Part shown: one piece after another, positions 4,984-15,545 of the stretch
Numbering within the stretch: position 1 is the stretch's first letter
Layout of the letters: each line of letters opens with the position of its first letter
Program-made: the position numbers and the translations under genes
The notes under the pieces: generated by a model
Seen by the model: only the letters and a program-made list of their open reading frames with translations
Database searches by the model: none
What the model was told of the DNA's origin: nothing
Assembly: GCA_016934675.1 (NCBI GenBank)
Contig: JAFGSJ010000052.1
Span: forward strand, 1-64,000
Length of the DNA stretch: 64,000 bases
Direction: 5' to 3'
From: a bacterium
GTDB taxonomy: Bacteria > CSSED10-310 > JAFGSJ01

Positions 4984-7188
4984 ATGAAAGCAAAGTACGT
5001 CCTTGTAATCATGGCACTGGTCATCATTTTCACCAATTGTATGAAACAGCAGACCATGAAAGCGCACAGTGTCCCCGAAACCATGACAAAATCGGCTATT
5101 CCCACACCGCCGATCGCTCCAGTGAAACCCTTTCAGCAAACCATCCATGGCATAACCCTGGTTGATAATTACGCCTGGTTAAAGGACAGGGACCGCACGA
5201 ATCAGGAAGTTCTCGATTACATCGAGGCTGAAAACAGCTATACCGATCAAATGATGAAACATACGATGCCCATGCAAAATGATCTTTTTCAGGAAATAGT
5301 CAGTCGGATAAAGGAAACCGATCTGGCCGTTCCGGTCAAACGAGATCAGTATTTTTATTATTCGCGAACGGAAAAAGGTAAACAATATTCGATCCACTGT
5401 CGCAAAAAGGATTATCTTGATGCGCCCGAGGAGATCATTCTCGATGTGAACGAGATTGCCCGTGACCATGATTATTTCACACTCGATGCAACCTATATCA
5501 GCCCCGATCATCGTTACTACGCATATACCGCGGATGTGACCGGCCAAGAAAAGTTTGAATTAGCTATTAAAGATCTGACAATCGGACAAATGTTATCGGA
5601 TCGAATCCCAAACATCAGTTCCTTTGCCTGGGCCAACGATAATCTCACCTTCTTTTACACGATCGATAATGAGGCCAATAGGAGTTATCAAGCCTATCGC
5701 CATGTGCTCGGCACCGACCCTGTCAACGATGTGCTCATCTATCATGATCCTGATGACGCATATTATGTCTGGGTCGAGAAAACAAAGAGCCAGGAGTATA
5801 TCATTCTTGGTTCAAACAGCAGTAAAACATCAGAAATCCGCTTCCTCGATGCCAATACGCCTTTCGGAACATTCACGCTTATTCATGCGCGTGAACAGGG
5901 CCTGGAATATTACCCGGTCCATCACGGCGGTCTGTTCTATATCTACACGAATGCCGCTGGTGCTAAAAATTATAAAATTGTAACTGCACCGGTGACAGAT
6001 CCTGGCTTGCATAACTGGCAAGATTATGTTCCGGGTCGGGAAACCGTCTTTCTCAGTAATTACGACGTCGTTCAAAATCACCTGATCGTGTTCGAACGGG
6101 AGAAAGGGCTCGAACGAATGAGACTCTTCGATTTGCGGACCAATCAGGACCACTATCTCGACTTTCCGGAGCCGATCTACACGATTCAAAGCCAGGCTAA
6201 TCCTGAATTCGAAACACCTTATTTCCGATTCAGTTATATGTCCCTGATCACGCCTTATACCGTGTATGACTATGATCTCGAGCAGAACCGCCTTATTGTC
6301 AAAAAGCAGGAAGAGGTCCTGGGTGGCTATGATCCCGGCGATTATGAATCTGAGCGGCTGTTCGCTACTGCTGCTGATGGCGTTCAGGTACCGATCAGTC
6401 TTGTTTATAAGAAGTCCTTGTTCCAGAAAAATGGCTCAAACCCACTTTTTCTCGAAGCTTATGGAGCGTATGGTATAAGCTCTGATCCCTATTTTTCCTC
6501 GATCAGGTTGAGCCTGCTCGATCGGGGCTTCATCTATGCCATCGCCCATGTCCGGGGAGGTCATGAATTGGGTGAAGACTGGTACGAGCAAGGACGAATG
6601 CTTAAAAAGATGAATACATTCACAGATTTTATCGCCTGTGCCGAACATCTCATCCAAGCCCACTATACCTCGTCACAAAAACTGGTTATTTATGGTGGGA
6701 GTGCCGGAGGATTGCTGTTGGGTGCGGTTACTAACCTTCGACCCGATTTGTGTGCTATCGTTCTGGCCGATGTTCCCTTCGTCGATGTCTTGAATACAAT
6801 GCTCGACCCTACTCTGGCTGCTACTGTTTCTGAATACGAGGAATGGGGCAATCCTACTATCAAGGAATACTTCGACTCGATCAGGTCTTATTGCCCCTAT
6901 CAGAATGTCAAAGCCCAAAACTACCCTCATATGCTGATTATGGGCGGATTCTACGACCCACGGGTAAATTTCTGGGAACCGGCAAAATGGACCGCAAAAC
7001 TTCGGGCTTTGAAAACCGACTCCAATAGATTACTCCTGAGAATAAATATGTCCGGTCACGGCGGTGCTTCAGGACGTTACGATTTCATAAAGGAGATCGC
7101 CTTCGGCTACGCGTTCGTCTTTGATATTCTGAAGATCCCATACAACACAACTTCCCCCGGAATAAATACGGGGATTGGTGGAGAATGA
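4984..7188 (+). CDS. ptrB: Oligopeptidase B-like S9A serine peptidase, lipoprotein
   Basis: A 734-residue protein with an N-terminal seven-bladed propeller and a C-terminal alpha/beta hydrolase. The catalytic Ser is in GGSAGG (S573), Asp in YDPRVNFWEPAKW and His in GHGGASGRYDF. The YEEWGNP and EPAKW segments are typical of oligopeptidase B, which cuts peptides after Arg or Lys. The ATG at 4984 was chosen because AAGGAG ends 6 nt before it. A longer in-frame TTG at 4918 lacks a ribosome site. The N-terminus is a lipoprotein signal with lipobox Cys in IFTNC, unusual for PtrB, which is normally cytosolic. Confidence 0.9.
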   Translation: MKAKYVLVIMALVIIFTNCMKQQTMKAHSVPETMTKSAIPTPPIAPVKPFQQTIHGITLVDNYAWLKDRDRTNQEVLDYIEAENSYTDQMMKHTMPMQNDLFQEIVSRIKETDLAVPVKRDQYFYYSRTEKGKQYSIHCRKKDYLDAPEEIILDVNEIARDHDYFTLDATYISPDHRYYAYTADVTGQEKFELAIKDLTIGQMLSDRIPNISSFAWANDNLTFFYTIDNEANRSYQAYRHVLGTDPVNDVLIYHDPDDAYYVWVEKTKSQEYIILGSNSSKTSEIRFLDANTPFGTFTLIHAREQGLEYYPVHHGGLFYIYTNAAGAKNYKIVTAPVTDPGLHNWQDYVPGRETVFLSNYDVVQNHLIVFEREKGLERMRLFDLRTNQDHYLDFPEPIYTIQSQANPEFETPYFRFSYMSLITPYTVYDYDLEQNRLIVKKQEEVLGGYDPGDYESERLFATAADGVQVPISLVYKKSLFQKNGSNPLFLEAYGAYGISSDPYFSSIRLSLLDRGFIYAIAHVRGGHELGEDWYEQGRMLKKMNTFTDFIACAEHLIQAHYTSSQKLVIYGGSAGGLLLGAVTNLRPDLCAIVLADVPFVDVLNTMLDPTLAATVSEYEEWGNPTIKEYFDSIRSYCPYQNVKAQNYPHMLIMGGFYDPRVNFWEPAKWTAKLRALKTDSNRLLLRINMSGHGGASGRYDFIKEIAFGYAFVFDILKIPYNTTSPGINTGIGGE

Positions 7189-9095: not shown

Positions 9096-9992
9096 TTATA
9101 TTCGGAAAGATGTTATGAAATAACCGAGAGCGAGTAATATCTGGGTCAGCATGGTCACGGCAACGTTGATTCCCTGGGCGGGTAAAAGCTTTTCACAGGA
9201 ATCGTAATCGCGGATAGCTCCTAAACAGGCACGGAGACTAATGGGTAGAGCCATGAGTGCGATCAGGGTCCAAGTGGGCATGAAACCCAGGATGACCCAG
9301 AGCACGATCCAGAGAAAAACGGCCAGGGCTACTGCGGTATATATCCAGCCAGCCACAGGCTTACCAAAAATGATGACCAGATGTCGACGTCCTCCCTGGG
9401 CATCGGCCTCACAATCCGGGAATTCATTTAAAAGAAGCAGGTTAAAAACGAGAAAACCGGCCGGGACGGCTGCAATCATGGCTGAGCCGGATAGCTGTCC
9501 GGTGTTGACGAATTGGATACCAAGCACCGGCAGAAAACCGAGTCCCAAACCGGCCCCCAGTTCACCTAACATGATTTTGGCCAGCACAGGTGTATAGAAA
9601 ATAACTAAGAACAAACCAATCAATCCGATAAATAGTAATTCCCAACCCGTCTGTGCAGCCAGAAACAAGCCCGTAGCCAAACCGATGATCAGGGCCACAA
9701 GAGCATAGACCAGGGCTTGCCTGGCTGTCATTTTTCCCTCTGGAAGCACGCCGCTTCCGCCGGAAAAAGGTGTCTTGGGTGTCGCGAAATCGATTCGACT
9801 GAGAAAATCGAAATATTCGTTGAAGACATTGACGCTGATATGGAGTGAAACCAAGCCGAGGCCGGCCAGTATTGAATAGAACCAGTTGATCGAGCCATTA
9901 CCCAGATAATAAGCCACAGCCATGCCATACAGGGTCAGAACAAGCGGTAAAATGAGAAACGGACCGCGGGCCGTTAACAGCCATTTATTCAT
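9096..9992 (-). CDS. UbiA-family prenyltransferase, MenA-like
   Basis: A 298-residue integral membrane protein with about nine helices. The two Mg-prenyl-diphosphate motifs are visible: NEYFDFLSRID in the first half and EFPDCEADAQGGRRHL in the second. Such enzymes join a polyprenyl chain to an aromatic acceptor, as MenA does in menaquinone synthesis. No other quinone gene is nearby, so the acceptor is uncertain. I chose the ATG at 9992, preceded by AGAGGGGGA. An upstream TTG at 10019 overlaps the previous stop and would add nine residues. Confidence 0.8.
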   Translation of the reverse strand: MNKWLLTARGPFLILPLVLTLYGMAVAYYLGNGSINWFYSILAGLGLVSLHISVNVFNEYFDFLSRIDFATPKTPFSGGSGVLPEGKMTARQALVYALVALIIGLATGLFLAAQTGWELLFIGLIGLFLVIFYTPVLAKIMLGELGAGLGLGFLPVLGIQFVNTGQLSGSAMIAAVPAGFLVFNLLLLNEFPDCEADAQGGRRHLVIIFGKPVAGWIYTAVALAVFLWIVLWVILGFMPTWTLIALMALPISLRACLGAIRDYDSCEKLLPAQGINVAVTMLTQILLALGYFITSFRI

Positions 9993-10015
9993 GCTTTCCC
10001 CCTCTTCTGATAGAA

Positions 10016-11083
10016 TCAACTTTTACATATGGCACTTGTTTTTTCTGATTTATAACCCCTCAGAAAACGATGCATGGCATGGATGTCTTCCTTGGACCTG
10101 CCCTTGAACAGAATGTTCTCCGCCCACTCGATATCCTTGTTCTGGAATATGATCGAGTCGATAATCTCACCGGCAACGGCTCGGCTGATATAACCCGCCC
10201 GCAACAGAGTGACGACCTCGGAAGCCATATGTGAACGGTGATCGTTGATCTCGGAAATCAGGTCCCCATCTGGAGCCTTTCCGTTGAAGACGATGATGTT
10301 GAAGTAACCCCCAACACCCATATTCTTGCGGGCGGCGAGGTTAACGGCATCGATAATGGCCATGATACCCTCGACCGGATCAATGTCGATCTCGCCATGA
10401 AGGCAGTGATGATCATCAAAAAAAGAGGGCAAAACAAAATTGACCGTGTCACTACCCGAACCTTCTGCAGCAAAACCAAAGGGAACTTCCTCGCAGAATT
10501 GTTCGCGCATCGAGAACAGGAATATCTGAAATCCATGCATTCGATCGTAACCGGCCACAATACCTTTGTTTCCGAAAACTGCGTTCGAGCCACTGAAATC
10601 AGCCGGCGGTGCAATCATTTCCTGCACCCGCTCGATGATTTCGGGTTGTTTTATCGGGATTTCCTGATCATCGAGCTGTTGAAAACCCTGACAAAATTCT
10701 CTCGTGGTAAAGCCAAAACGCGACAGCAATTGATCGTCGATATGCTGATGTTTAACATCCATCAAGATTGAAAAAGTCAGGTCGGCAATATCGCGGATAC
10801 TCATAAAATCAGACTTTTGAGCATCTTTGTCATCACAGAAATCCTTGTAGGCATCCCTGATCCTGGTCCGAAGTGTCAAGCGTATTTCATCCCCGATCGA
10901 GGATGTTCCGGTGTTACCATAGGCAGCAGCAAGTTGAAATCGGTGCATGATGTCATCAGCGACCACGGGCAGAATCTTATCGGCCCCATAGATTTTCATT
11001 CGGTCGTCATTCCAATGGCGTTGTTCATCACAGATCATAGCGCCCGAGTAGTGGTTGAATTTGATAGCATTAATACTTGTCAT
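10016..11083 (-). CDS. Proteasome-like Ntn hydrolase, predicted active subunit
   Basis: A 355-residue protein with a proteasome beta/HslV-like fold. After Met removal the N-terminus is Thr2. Asp19 (in MICDEQR) and Lys36 (in YGADKI) fall where Asp17 and Lys33 of beta subunits and HslV sit, so the catalytic set looks complete. Further along, FAAEGSGSD resembles the GSGS turn, and the stretch from VEGIMAI to GVGGYFN resembles the helix and GG turn before the last strand. It is over 100 residues longer than HslV or Anbu. The helical insert (about 65-150) and the C-terminal tail (about 290-355) are extra. It follows its paralogue by 33 bp. No HslU, ARC/Mpa or Anbu-operon gene is adjacent. I do not know a named family for it. 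Confidence 0.75.
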   Translation of the reverse strand: MTSINAIKFNHYSGAMICDEQRHWNDDRMKIYGADKILPVVADDIMHRFQLAAAYGNTGTSSIGDEIRLTLRTRIRDAYKDFCDDKDAQKSDFMSIRDIADLTFSILMDVKHQHIDDQLLSRFGFTTREFCQGFQQLDDQEIPIKQPEIIERVQEMIAPPADFSGSNAVFGNKGIVAGYDRMHGFQIFLFSMREQFCEEVPFGFAAEGSGSDTVNFVLPSFFDDHHCLHGEIDIDPVEGIMAIIDAVNLAARKNMGVGGYFNIIVFNGKAPDGDLISEINDHRSHMASEVVTLLRAGYISRAVAGEIIDSIIFQNKDIEWAENILFKGRSKEDIHAMHRFLRGYKSEKTSAICKS

Positions 11084-11116
11084 AAGAATCCGTCTCCTCT
11101 GGTCCGGATCGTAAGA

Positions 11117-12214
11117 TCAAGTCCGACTGGCTGAATAGACTTGTTTGAGTATTTTGGACTGCGATTGACCGGGAATGGTCTTTTTGTATCCTCTGAGCAT
11201 TTTTTCGACCGCATGGAAATCGGTGACCTGTTGAAAAAAATCTGTTTCAAGTGTATTCAGTGTTTCATTCCTGAGCAGTCTGGTTATGAGCTTTTCCAAT
11301 TTTTCCTTTGGTAAAAAGCTGTCAGCATAAGCCTTGACCATTTCGATCAGAAGCTGGGCCCTGTTATTGCCAATTTCGCGCGCTCTGTCTTCGGGTTTTT
11401 TCTCATCAGCATCAAGCAGGACCATGCGAAGAGCACCGCCGACATGGCCAAAGGACTTACCTGCTTTAATGATCGCAAGACAAAGGGAGATGATACCCTG
11501 GAGGGTCCCCATACCGAGACGTCGTTGTGAGAGTGATAATTCGTTCAACAGGTTCGCAAATTCAGCACCGGCTATGTATTTACCGGCGCCCAGGGCCTCG
11601 AAACCGCATGAATGAAAGGAGAGAACCCCATCCCTTTCCTTCATTGTAAAGCCACTGAATCCATTTACTGGATCAATCCCGATCAGGCTGGCTTCATTCG
11701 CAACTGTCAGATCGCCATAACCGAGCGATTCTTTACCTTCGATGATAGCCAATGCCCTCTTTTTAACATTGTTCTGATTGATTGGATATGAGCCTGACTT
11801 TGACCGGTTCAAAGAGGGGACCTGATCACCGACAAAGGCCTCTGTCCCAAAACCATAGAGAAATTGAAGCCGGTTATCGATCCTCTTTCTCAGATTCTGT
11901 TGAAAAGCCAGCAACACTTCCCGACACAGGTTAAAAATCGGTCTTGAGTCATGAAGAATCTGCGATTGCCAATAGGTATCATGTGATTTGTGCTCCAAAG
12001 TCTGACGGACCATATTAACAATCTCGAAATGAAATGAGGGATGGCCAATGCCGCCATAATAGAGCTCCAAACCGTTTTTACGCAGATTTTCTGGTAGCAA
12101 TGAATAGAAACAATCAGAAAAAAATGTTTTCCGCCTTCTGAGAAACCAGGATTCCTGGTCCATGGCCATAGCACCGGAGCGCGGTGTGAAGCGGAGTGCA
12201 GTCAACAATGCCAT
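11117..12214 (-). CDS. Proteasome-like Ntn-fold protein, catalytic Thr absent
   Basis: A 365-residue paralogue of the next gene downstream. Both begin with a short strand, then SGAMxxD, and end with HAxxxxLRGYK. Here residue 2 is Ala (MALLTALRF), Asp19 is kept, but the position matching Lys36 is Phe, so proteolysis is not expected. The C-terminal half keeps a proteasome-like helix and a GHVGGALRMVLL strand. The start at 12214 is set by GGGAGG 7 nt upstream; a longer reading to 12247 has no such site. By analogy with alpha/beta proteasomes it may be a structural partner of the active subunit (inference). Confidence 0.7.
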   Translation of the reverse strand: MALLTALRFTPRSGAMAMDQESWFLRRRKTFFSDCFYSLLPENLRKNGLELYYGGIGHPSFHFEIVNMVRQTLEHKSHDTYWQSQILHDSRPIFNLCREVLLAFQQNLRKRIDNRLQFLYGFGTEAFVGDQVPSLNRSKSGSYPINQNNVKKRALAIIEGKESLGYGDLTVANEASLIGIDPVNGFSGFTMKERDGVLSFHSCGFEALGAGKYIAGAEFANLLNELSLSQRRLGMGTLQGIISLCLAIIKAGKSFGHVGGALRMVLLDADEKKPEDRAREIGNNRAQLLIEMVKAYADSFLPKEKLEKLITRLLRNETLNTLETDFFQQVTDFHAVEKMLRGYKKTIPGQSQSKILKQVYSASRT

Positions 12215-12407: not shown

Positions 12408-15400
12408 TCATTGTGAAGAAAGCAAAAGATCAGGATCGCCAAGAATCCAAGCGAGATGTTGGGCTCGTTTCGATCGGGACTCGGTCGAGAGGACAAGCCC
12501 ATTTTCTGAGACCGGGTACCATGCCAATTGATAGCTCAGACACAATTCCAGAAAATTGCCTGCTTGCCAGGCTTTACTGATCAGCCCTATCTGGGATTCG
12601 AGTGTTGCCCAGGAGTCTTGCGACATCCCCAGGACCCAACTCAATCGACGTAATGGTTCGAAGATCAGGTCCGTTCTTTTCTCAAGCAACGAACAAACCT
12701 GCTTATAGCAATCCCGGGCATGTTCCCAATCCTGCATGCAGGCATATGCCTCAGCCAGATAGCACAGATCAAAGGCATAGCTTTCCTGATTTGGCGGCAG
12801 GTAACGTTGATGCAATTTAGCCTGCTCGAACATTTGTATGGCTTTTGGGTAATCTTGCCGCATCAGGGCGATCTGCCCATGGATTTCTCTGTTTTTCTTA
12901 AGGTCGAAATTATTCTTGACCTGATCGAGCAAGCCGTCCCCCTGAGTAAGGCATTCTTCGGCCGCAGCCTGATTATGAAGCAGGAGATATATTTCCGCCA
13001 GTCTATGCCAGGCATGCACAGTCAATTCCGGATTATTCATGCCCTGAGTCATGTTCAACAATCGCTCGAAATCACGTTTGGCCTGATGAATATCGTTTCT
13101 CATCAGGTTACCAAACCCTGATTTCATCACTAATCGTGCCTGAGACAGAAGCAATTCATTCTGGTTTTCTGTATCTTGAACCGATTGTGTGTGTTTCTGA
13201 TAAGCTATAAAGGCATTCTCCATCATCCTTTCGGCGACCAGACTGGCGGTTTGACTATATTCTGCTGCCGCAGCCTGACCCCAATAATAAGAAGCCTGAA
13301 GGTAAGCTTCAGCATTATGGTAGTGATGGGCGACCAATTCCGGACTGAGGTCAGGTTGAAGGGAGTATTGCTGATGATAATATTGAGCAATCCGATAATG
13401 GATTTCAGTACGTTCAACCCGTTCGAGTGAAGCATAAATCAATTGCTGGACTAATGGCTGTTTGAAATAGTAAAACGTATCCTGATACGATTCTTCACTT
13501 AAGATATTGTCCTGGATCAGTCTGCGTACACACTCGAACAACTCATCGCTCTCCTGGCCGGAAATGTTGCTGATCAGATCAAAAGAAAAGTGATAACCGG
13601 CGACGGCGGCAATGTGCAGATATTTCAAGTAGTTCCGGGGGATGGACCCAAAGCGATCGGCCACAATTTCATAGAGGCTGTTGGGGATGTGCATGTCCCG
13701 CCAATGTTGAGCCGATTCGCACAATGAGCATGAAGCAGTCAGCACGAGTTGGTCTGCGGCTCGACAAAAAGATTTTTGCCGGACCAGATAATGGACTACT
13801 TCCTTGATGAAATAGGGGTTACCCTCGGTCAGGCTGGAAAAGCGTTGCATAAGATCTGATTGAACGGTGCGAACGCCTAACATGGAACAGATAAATTCCA
13901 TGGTCTCAGCTAAGGAAAAAGAAGGTAACGAAATCGAATGGAGAATTCCTTCCTCATGAAACTGGGCCATGTATTTCTGGCAATGGGAGGCTTCGAGAAA
14001 AGGTTCTTGCCTGACAGTGATCATGATGAACAAACGGGGGGGGATAGATGGGTCCAAACCGATCGTTCGCAGAGCCAGAATGATAAATCGGAGTAATTCC
14101 CATTCCTCAGCCGAACTGAAATGCATGTCCTCCAAAACAACGACCAGCGGTTTACGATCTATGAAATTCCTGATTATCTCAAGAACAGTTTGCCAATAAT
14201 GATATTTTCGCCGCTTTGCTTCCCAGCCATAGACCGAAACACGTACTCCTTCCGGTTTGCAAAATGAAGCATAGTAATCACGGTTCCAGCTTGTTTCAGT
14301 GATCCTATGTCGGAATAACCAATCAGGTATGTGCAGTGATGGCAGATCGTGTGTGCAACGAGCGGTTTCGGCGCGTTTCATATTCTGAAGAAAATCACTG
14401 AATAAAGGATAGGACCGTTGCCGGTCGCTGAGTTGACGACCATATACTACTTCTATATTGTTCAAGACCAATTGATGCGTAAACTCTTGGACCAGGCGAG
14501 TTTTACCGATACCATCTGGCCCTTGAATTACCACACACGCAACGGTTTCCTGGCTGTGCCAGTACAATGTATGCAATTGTTCGAGTTCGCCCTGCCGACC
14601 AATGAAACGCGGCTCGAAACAACCATTAATCTGCTCATCTGCGGTGTCAGCTCGCGCCTCGCTGATCGATTGTTCAGCTCCTGGCACGGCTGTACTGCTC
14701 AGTCTCGTTGATGTGTTGTGCAGACAAAATTTCAGTAATTCATTGACAACAGCTTGTGCGGATGAAATCCGATCATCGGGGTCCTTGGCCATCATCTTGA
14801 GAATGAGTTGCGAAATTGCCTCCGGCAACTCTGGATTCAGTAAATGTGGTGAAGCTGGTTCATCCCTGATGATTTTCCAGAGAAAGGCAATGGGGTCCTC
14901 TTCAATAAAGGGCAATGTACCAGTAGTTAATAAATAGAAAATGACCCCTAGAGAATAGATATCGGTCCGACTGTCTACGTGCTTACCCAAAGCCTGCTCG
15001 GGGGACATATATTTAACCGTTCCGATGATCGTGCCCGTTTCCGTGACCATGCTGTCATCAGTGCCCAAGATTTTTACCAGGCCGAAATCAGTCAATTTTA
15101 TGACCTTATCTGCGCCCACCATGATGTTCGACGGTTTCAGATCACGATGAATAATGCCTCGTTCATGCAAGTAAGCCAAAGCGGCTGCAATTTGATCAAT
15201 AATTCTGATTGATTCTTCTAAAGAGATACCGTTTTCTTTATTTTGTGAATAATACTCAGCCAGGGAACTGCCTGAGACATATTCCATGACGAAATAGGGT
15301 GATTCGGCAAATGTCCCCCAATTATAAACCTTGACGATGTGAGGGTGGGACAGATGTATCAAAGCCCTGATTTCACGCATGAAACGGTGATAACGACTGA

Positions 15401-15545
15401 CCATAGTGCGGTCTTTTTCCGAAACCAGGATTTTCAGGGCATAATAATTGGATTTTCCGGTTTCAGTAACCAGAAAAACCTTACCCATCGAGCCTTCACC
15501 GATTTTGTGAACAATCTCATATGCATCGATCTGCTTAGCCATCAA
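12408..15545 (-). CDS. Ser/Thr protein kinase with AAA-type ATPase and TPR region
   Basis: A 1045-residue PknK-like signalling protein. Kinase domain at about 9-275: GEGSMG loop, K38 in YALKIL, HRDLKPSN catalytic loop, TDFG and a PEQALGK activation segment, all intact. A STAND/AAA ATPase follows from about 310 with Walker A GPDGIGKT and a hydrophobic Walker B ending LEDMHFSS. The C-terminal part is helical with TPR-like repeats to the end. There is no membrane segment, so it is cytosolic. It is upstream of, and co-directional with, the proteasome-like pair, with a 193-bp gap; whether they share a transcript is open. It starts with two adjacent Met codons. Confidence 0.9.
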   Translation of the reverse strand: MMAKQIDAYEIVHKIGEGSMGKVFLVTETGKSNYYALKILVSEKDRTMVSRYHRFMREIRALIHLSHPHIVKVYNWGTFAESPYFVMEYVSGSSLAEYYSQNKENGISLEESIRIIDQIAAALAYLHERGIIHRDLKPSNIMVGADKVIKLTDFGLVKILGTDDSMVTETGTIIGTVKYMSPEQALGKHVDSRTDIYSLGVIFYLLTTGTLPFIEEDPIAFLWKIIRDEPASPHLLNPELPEAISQLILKMMAKDPDDRISSAQAVVNELLKFCLHNTSTRLSSTAVPGAEQSISEARADTADEQINGCFEPRFIGRQGELEQLHTLYWHSQETVACVVIQGPDGIGKTRLVQEFTHQLVLNNIEVVYGRQLSDRQRSYPLFSDFLQNMKRAETARCTHDLPSLHIPDWLFRHRITETSWNRDYYASFCKPEGVRVSVYGWEAKRRKYHYWQTVLEIIRNFIDRKPLVVVLEDMHFSSAEEWELLRFIILALRTIGLDPSIPPRLFIMITVRQEPFLEASHCQKYMAQFHEEGILHSISLPSFSLAETMEFICSMLGVRTVQSDLMQRFSSLTEGNPYFIKEVVHYLVRQKSFCRAADQLVLTASCSLCESAQHWRDMHIPNSLYEIVADRFGSIPRNYLKYLHIAAVAGYHFSFDLISNISGQESDELFECVRRLIQDNILSEESYQDTFYYFKQPLVQQLIYASLERVERTEIHYRIAQYYHQQYSLQPDLSPELVAHHYHNAEAYLQASYYWGQAAAAEYSQTASLVAERMMENAFIAYQKHTQSVQDTENQNELLLSQARLVMKSGFGNLMRNDIHQAKRDFERLLNMTQGMNNPELTVHAWHRLAEIYLLLHNQAAAEECLTQGDGLLDQVKNNFDLKKNREIHGQIALMRQDYPKAIQMFEQAKLHQRYLPPNQESYAFDLCYLAEAYACMQDWEHARDCYKQVCSLLEKRTDLIFEPLRRLSWVLGMSQDSWATLESQIGLISKAWQAGNFLELCLSYQLAWYPVSENGLVLSTESRSKRAQHLAWILGDPDLLLSSQ

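Follow-up and report, generated by a model that had tools for sequence, protein, structure and literature searches.

A recurrent tandem gene pair in two bacterial phyla encodes a predicted catalytic proteasome-like protein and a predicted inactive partner

The 20S proteasome combines, on the Ntn sandwich fold, an active threonine subunit (beta) with an inactive homologous partner (alpha). Beta subunits are compact, with about 200 aa and usually a processed propeptide, and carry a catalytic Thr, Asp and Lys, an oxyanion Gly and a GSG segment; alpha subunits bear an N-terminal H0 extension. HslV has the same catalytic set and a Met-Thr start, and is a homomeric protein of about 175 aa paired with HslU. 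Anbu is the product of one gene (about 240 aa), with a C-terminal helical extension and no linked AAA+ ATPase, in an operon with transglutaminase, ATP-grasp and Alpha-E genes (PMC5666114). BPH is a Thr1 hydrolase that forms a homomeric double ring, with no inactive partner and no known unfoldase, and its Thr1 is exposed by Met removal (PMC5777263). Connectase is a proteasome-fold protein that carries an insertion and is taxonomically restricted. In addition, Fuchs, Alva and Lupas 2021 present 22 new, uncharacterised proteasome-like families (PMC8665760). Outside the 20S system, the prokaryotic relatives described in the literature searched are single-gene systems, and no description of an inactive partner was found there, most subscription journals being outside the reach of that search.

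The window analysed here (the whole stretch of 64,000 nucleotides from contig JAFGSJ010000052.1) contains two adjacent proteasome-like genes, referred to as A and B, whose features are presented in Table 1. An earlier reading of the letters without database searches (the sequence-only reading) had placed two genes of about 355 and 365 codons here, and both open reading frames were confirmed, on the minus strand. The start of B was set at the ATG conserved in the family, whereas the mechanical open reading frame begins at GTG 12247. The pair resembles the 20S system in its fold and in joining a predicted active subunit to an inactive homologue, and A presents the same catalytic elements as beta subunits. 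However, A starts with Met-Thr and has both an insert and a C-terminal tail, B begins directly at strand 1 (residues 3-10) with no counterpart of H0, the insert and helical tail common to A and B are absent from both 20S subunits, and both sequences fall below the family cut-offs. A also resembles HslV in its start and catalytic set, yet it is about twice as long and no hslU was seen beside the pairs. Likewise, the pair shares with Anbu the C-terminal helical extension, the missing AAA+ linkage and, at some copies, a neighbouring ATP-grasp ligase, but comprises two genes of 355-365 aa. With BPH it shares the predicted Thr1 chemistry and exposure by Met removal, but it differs in having a predicted inactive partner. 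Like connectase, it has an insertion and a narrow distribution.

Table 1. Coordinates of the features of the pair within the window.
Feature	Position	Strand	Basis or conservation
Gene B (365 aa), predicted non-catalytic partner of proteasome-like fold, 5' of A	11117..12214	-	Fold; catalytic positions lost, 24 homologues
Ala2 codon of B, nucleophile position	12209..12211	-	B: A 17, S 5, G 2
Cys35 codon of B, catalytic-Lys position	12110..12112	-	B: N/H/S/A/C/Y/F, never K
B insert, residues 121-173, helix 2 to strand 5, homologous to A insert	11696..11854	-	Model; profile alignment
LRGYK motif of B, residues 340-344	11183..11197	-	
GAGGAG ribosome-binding-like site in B-A gap	11084..11103	-	
Gene A, predicted proteasome-like catalytic subunit	10016..11083	-	355 aa, ATG start; fold and invariant residues
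Thr2 codon of A (= proteasome Thr1), predicted N-terminal nucleophile once Met removed	11078..11080	-	
Asp19 codon of A (= proteasome Asp17)	11027..11029	-	28/28 A, 24/24 B
Lys36 codon of A (= proteasome Lys33)	10976..10978	-	28/28 A, 0/24 B
Gly-Ser-Gly 208-210 of A (proteasome Ser129 region)	10454..10462	-	28/28 A
A insert, residues 124-172, helix 2 to strand 5, pore-loop position	10568..10714	-	AlphaFold and alignment
A C-terminal helical extension (281-345), LRGYK 341-345 at its end	10049..10243	-	Model and conservation

Structures were predicted with AlphaFold2 from four-row alignments of the window proteins and those of locus L034. The A model presents a pLDDT of 79.6 and a pTM of 0.78, and the B model a pLDDT of 76.9 and a pTM of 0.76. 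Both contain the canonical strands (S1-S10) and helices H1-H4. Each also has an insert that separates H2 from S5, and its helical C-terminal extension finishes with LRGYK. When compared with the PDB using Foldseek, A yielded a best E of 5.7e-8 (probability 1.00, target-normalised TM up to 0.77) and B a best E of 1.3e-7 (probability 1.00); among the best matches listed, all are proteasome subunits, Anbu also appearing among those of A. These models make a four-layer proteasome-type Ntn sandwich nearly certain for both proteins.

Sequence profiles point the same way at weaker values. Proteasome chains account for 30 of the 32 PDB profile matches of A (best proteasome E 0.013), which arise from its GSG region, and for 18 of the 25 of B (best proteasome E 0.077), while the phage family phrog_1040, annotated as 'peptidase HslV family', is matched by nine of 20 A members (best E 9.6e-5). 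Neither window protein matches the Pfam family PF00227 (Proteasome) at E<=1, and only two of 20 A members do match it (best E 0.02, below the curated cut-off). No significant family was found for A or B in Pfam, NCBIfam or PADLOC, the best family-library match being an archaeal proteasome beta model for A (E 0.09). Curated family libraries miss both proteins, and the active/inactive pair was previously undescribed in the literature searched.

Thr2, Asp19, Lys36, Gly59, Gly208, Ser209 and Gly210 are invariant across 28 A homologues, although identity among A proteins from the two phyla falls to about 30%. All 28 thus carry the N-terminal Thr, Asp17, Lys33 and oxyanion Gly47 by which proteasome-like Ntn hydrolases are recognised; the equivalents of Asp166 and Ser169 are not conserved. 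In the 24 B proteins, Asp19 and the G-x-G pattern are always retained, but Thr2 is never found (it is replaced by Ala, Ser or Gly), Ser209 is present in only two, and the Lys36 position holds Asn in 14, His in four and other residues in the remainder. Given that Lys36 is absent from every B while Thr2, Asp19 and Lys36 are present in every A, this pattern goes beyond chance. A is likely catalytic, as predicted from its conserved residue set, and B is almost certainly non-catalytic. The sequence-only reading had proposed the Ntn fold for both proteins, extra helical inserts with a shared LRGYK tail, and a catalytic subunit next to a non-catalytic one, all of which agree with the models and the conservation. 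Its residue assignments stand for Thr2, Asp19 and Lys36 of A and for Ala2 and Asp19 of B; Phe36 of B, by contrast, has to be replaced by Cys35, due to a one-residue gap in the alignment.

The same reading had suggested searching for co-occurrence of the pair across phyla, and the pair does recur as a fixed unit: 23 complete tandem pairs were obtained from nine genomes in two phyla. The family is present in seven of the eight genomes examined of the window's phylum, with up to nine copies in each and up to four pairs per genome. In the second phylum it is present in two of 149 genomes, namely G008 (deposited as 'Bacillota bacterium isolate UR.bin48', which carries L034) and G397, the sole genome of its class in the sample. 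A search around G397 returned just two further genomes, with match coordinates and scores identical to those of G002 and G005. A profile search of the sample taken from other phyla, roughly 380 genomes, yielded no family member; matches from other phyla with E of 0.006-0.4 are short fragments and were discounted as relatives. No relatives were found in viral contigs (A profile) or in plasmids and phages (tblastn).

In all 23 complete pairs, B lies directly 5' of A on the same strand. The genes overlap in 15 pairs (by four bases in 12, by one base in three), and most of the remainder are spaced within 35 bases, the widest gap being 99; 33 bases separate the genes of the window. Sequences resembling Shine-Dalgarno sites occur at the end of B. 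B was seen without A only on one contig fragment (L052), while two A genes have no adjacent B (L078:4975-6021 and one in L111), so A might function on its own. The former (minus strand) lies beside a DUF772 transposase gene (6101-6805, minus strand), and its B may have been lost through insertion. A B-A-A arrangement with a strongly diverged second A is observed at L037:11204-14440 (minus strand).

The A and the B proteins separate into two clades (bootstrap 100%), a split that precedes the paralogous pairs. Each clade radiates into matching groups: I (ispA), II (M20 peptidase), III (M23 peptidase), IV (the window) and L042/L110. Distances between matched A and B proteins present a correlation of r = 0.80, which was reached in none of 5000 permutations and in one of 5000 within-genome permutations. 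However, mirrored trees are also expected of tandem genes inherited together, and hence are no proof of physical contact. Aligning the A and B profiles yielded 351 columns (E 1.5e-77), versus 75 columns (E 1.8e-4) for A against two 20S beta genes of the window's phylum. For the latter, the first genes (beta, TTIL) were used, and the G007 'PsmB' and G006 'HslV' rows, which have incorrect frames, were excluded. Given this full-length alignment and the shared insert and tail, A and B are best regarded as sisters, and the site was probably lost in B independently of 20S alpha. To judge from this sequence comparison, their duplication was probably an event of its own, parallel to the beta/alpha split of the 20S proteasome.

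Our main reading, to which we assign a probability of about 0.6, is a heteromeric N-terminal-threonine hydrolase of proteasome-like type, with A and B as its two subunits. That the two form a complex is likely, whereas the odds of a ring are about even, and the reaction is moderately likely to be proteolysis as opposed to specific ligation or processing. A small second residue leads to removal of the initiator Met, and since the second residue is small in every A and every B, removal is expected in both. Methionine aminopeptidase would thereby expose Thr2 of A, so that no propeptide would be necessary. Thr2 would then attack peptide or amide bonds together with Lys36, Asp19 and Ser209, and B would join A in the assembly as a pseudo-enzyme with a structural or gating role. 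The complex would act without a dedicated AAA+ unfoldase, its substrates hence being presumed to be peptides or unfolded chains. Different pairs in one genome would probably be specialised for different substrates, some of them in pathways of peptide breakdown or uptake.

The site of the insert could stand in the way of a ring and bears on an unlikely alternative, in which A is a monomer or an A-B heterodimer that forms no ring and, like connectase, performs a specific reaction other than degradation (ligation of peptides, transpeptidation or one processing cut), with B as a specificity or regulatory subunit. The size of the insert, its place at the pore loop and the long C-terminal extension would suit this, as long inserts at that site are considered hard to fit into rings by Fuchs et al. 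2021 (PMC8665760), who propose that they could hinder ring assembly or closure. The missing unfoldase linkage would also suit it, as would the gene next downstream of A in two group II loci, L038:5065-8654 and L049:7032-10612 (both minus strand), which encodes a divergent ATP-grasp ligase of the circularly permuted type. Connectase, however, is a monomer that lacks H1 and H2, and its insert lies between S3 and S4, whereas both of our models present H1 and H2 and have the insert after H2.

With a comparably low probability, the pair could be an unrecognised branch of the published uncharacterised families, PHI or PMI-1 to PMI-6. According to the accessible part of PMC8665760, these proteasome-like proteins carry insertions, in part at the pore-loop site occupied in A and B, and a C-terminal coiled coil is present in some members of PHI. 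On the other hand, that part does not contain the word 'tandem', describes no tandem inactive partner, and applies 'inactive' only to 20S alpha and unassembled subunits. PMI-2 to PMI-6 are reported there with an H3/H4 insertion, while the H3-H4 loop of the A model is short, and PHI is reported as near the proteasome in sequence, while A and B lie below the Pfam Proteasome cut-off; the families were compared by description only. The claim of the sequence-only reading that no named system has this make-up holds for Pfam and NCBIfam, but has to be set against the 22 families already published.

The heteromeric hydrolase remains our preferred reading. That both proteins are degraded or non-proteolytic scaffold relics, or that the threonine set of A is kept for assembly only, is highly improbable: several eukaryotic beta subunits do retain the fold with no activity, but Thr2, Asp19, Lys36, Gly59 and Ser209 are invariant in A over two phyla, whereas most of them vary in B.

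The recurrence of the pair in two phyla as a fixed, co-translated unit suggests a second active-plus-inactive proteasome-type machine, independent of the classical one. We consider it an evenly balanced possibility that such a heteromeric particle evolved independently, through its own duplication followed by multiplication of matched pairs, giving unfoldase-free 'mini-proteasomes'. If this is true, bacteria hold parallel, unfoldase-independent proteasome-type particles and the heteromeric design has a second origin. A separate active/inactive family also raises the question of why such a split occurs, be it for gating, for assembly or for fewer active sites. Since A and B are small and propeptide-free, co-expression in E. 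coli should be straightforward.

The gene neighbourhoods agree with the sequence-only reading in that no AAA+ unfoldase was found among the annotated neighbours of the pairs; elsewhere in the window's genome, HslV lies next to an HslU-like AAA ATPase (G000:C162, L081:6342-8416, minus strand). That reading had also pointed to an upstream kinase, which is present at the window but is no general companion of the pairs. It is a 1045 aa Ser/Thr kinase with an AAA_16 ATPase domain and TPR repeats, directly upstream of B (12408-15545, minus strand). Different kinases lie near three further pairs (L078:12253-16050, L079:510-2546 and L109:5086-7083); of the four kinases near pairs that Pfam identified, a regular-expression scan missed three. 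A Ser/Thr kinase thus occurs within about two genes of four of the 23 pairs, against about 1.3 expected by chance according to a rough hand estimate. The genomes with kinase-linked pairs (G000, G008 and G397) contain 69-114 kinases each, 69 in the window's genome. Given so many kinases, the linkage is possibly due to chance, and as a functional signal it is only suggestive.

On the other side of the window's pair lies a UbiA/MenA-like prenyltransferase (9096-10019, minus strand), whose longest open reading frame overlaps the end of A by four bases. In group I, an ispA-like polyprenyl synthase gene follows A within a region of dxs, FtsJ-like methyltransferase, NAD kinase and RecN-like genes, which we read as a stable housekeeping location with no pathway clue; oligopeptide ABC transporter genes lie near three group I pairs. 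An M20 peptidase gene is found upstream of B in group II (L036, L038 and L049), an M23 peptidase gene is the neighbour in group III, and an M29 aminopeptidase gene lies beside the pair at L035. As the neighbours differ between paralogous groups, no single pathway is indicated.

The arrangement at L038 and L049 faintly recalls the Anbu operon minus Alpha-E and transglutaminase. Alpha-E is absent from the window's genome, and no transglutaminase was seen among the annotated neighbours. Circularly permuted ATP-grasp genes occur in six of the eight genomes of the window's phylum, with three to six copies each, and adjoin A only in group II, in two related genomes; in the window's genome, all copies are on contigs other than that of the pair. 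In genome G004, of the window's phylum, 20S proteasome beta and alpha genes are followed by a Pup ligase gene (L082:839-4103, plus strand), and since this genome also carries the new pairs, the two systems coexist.
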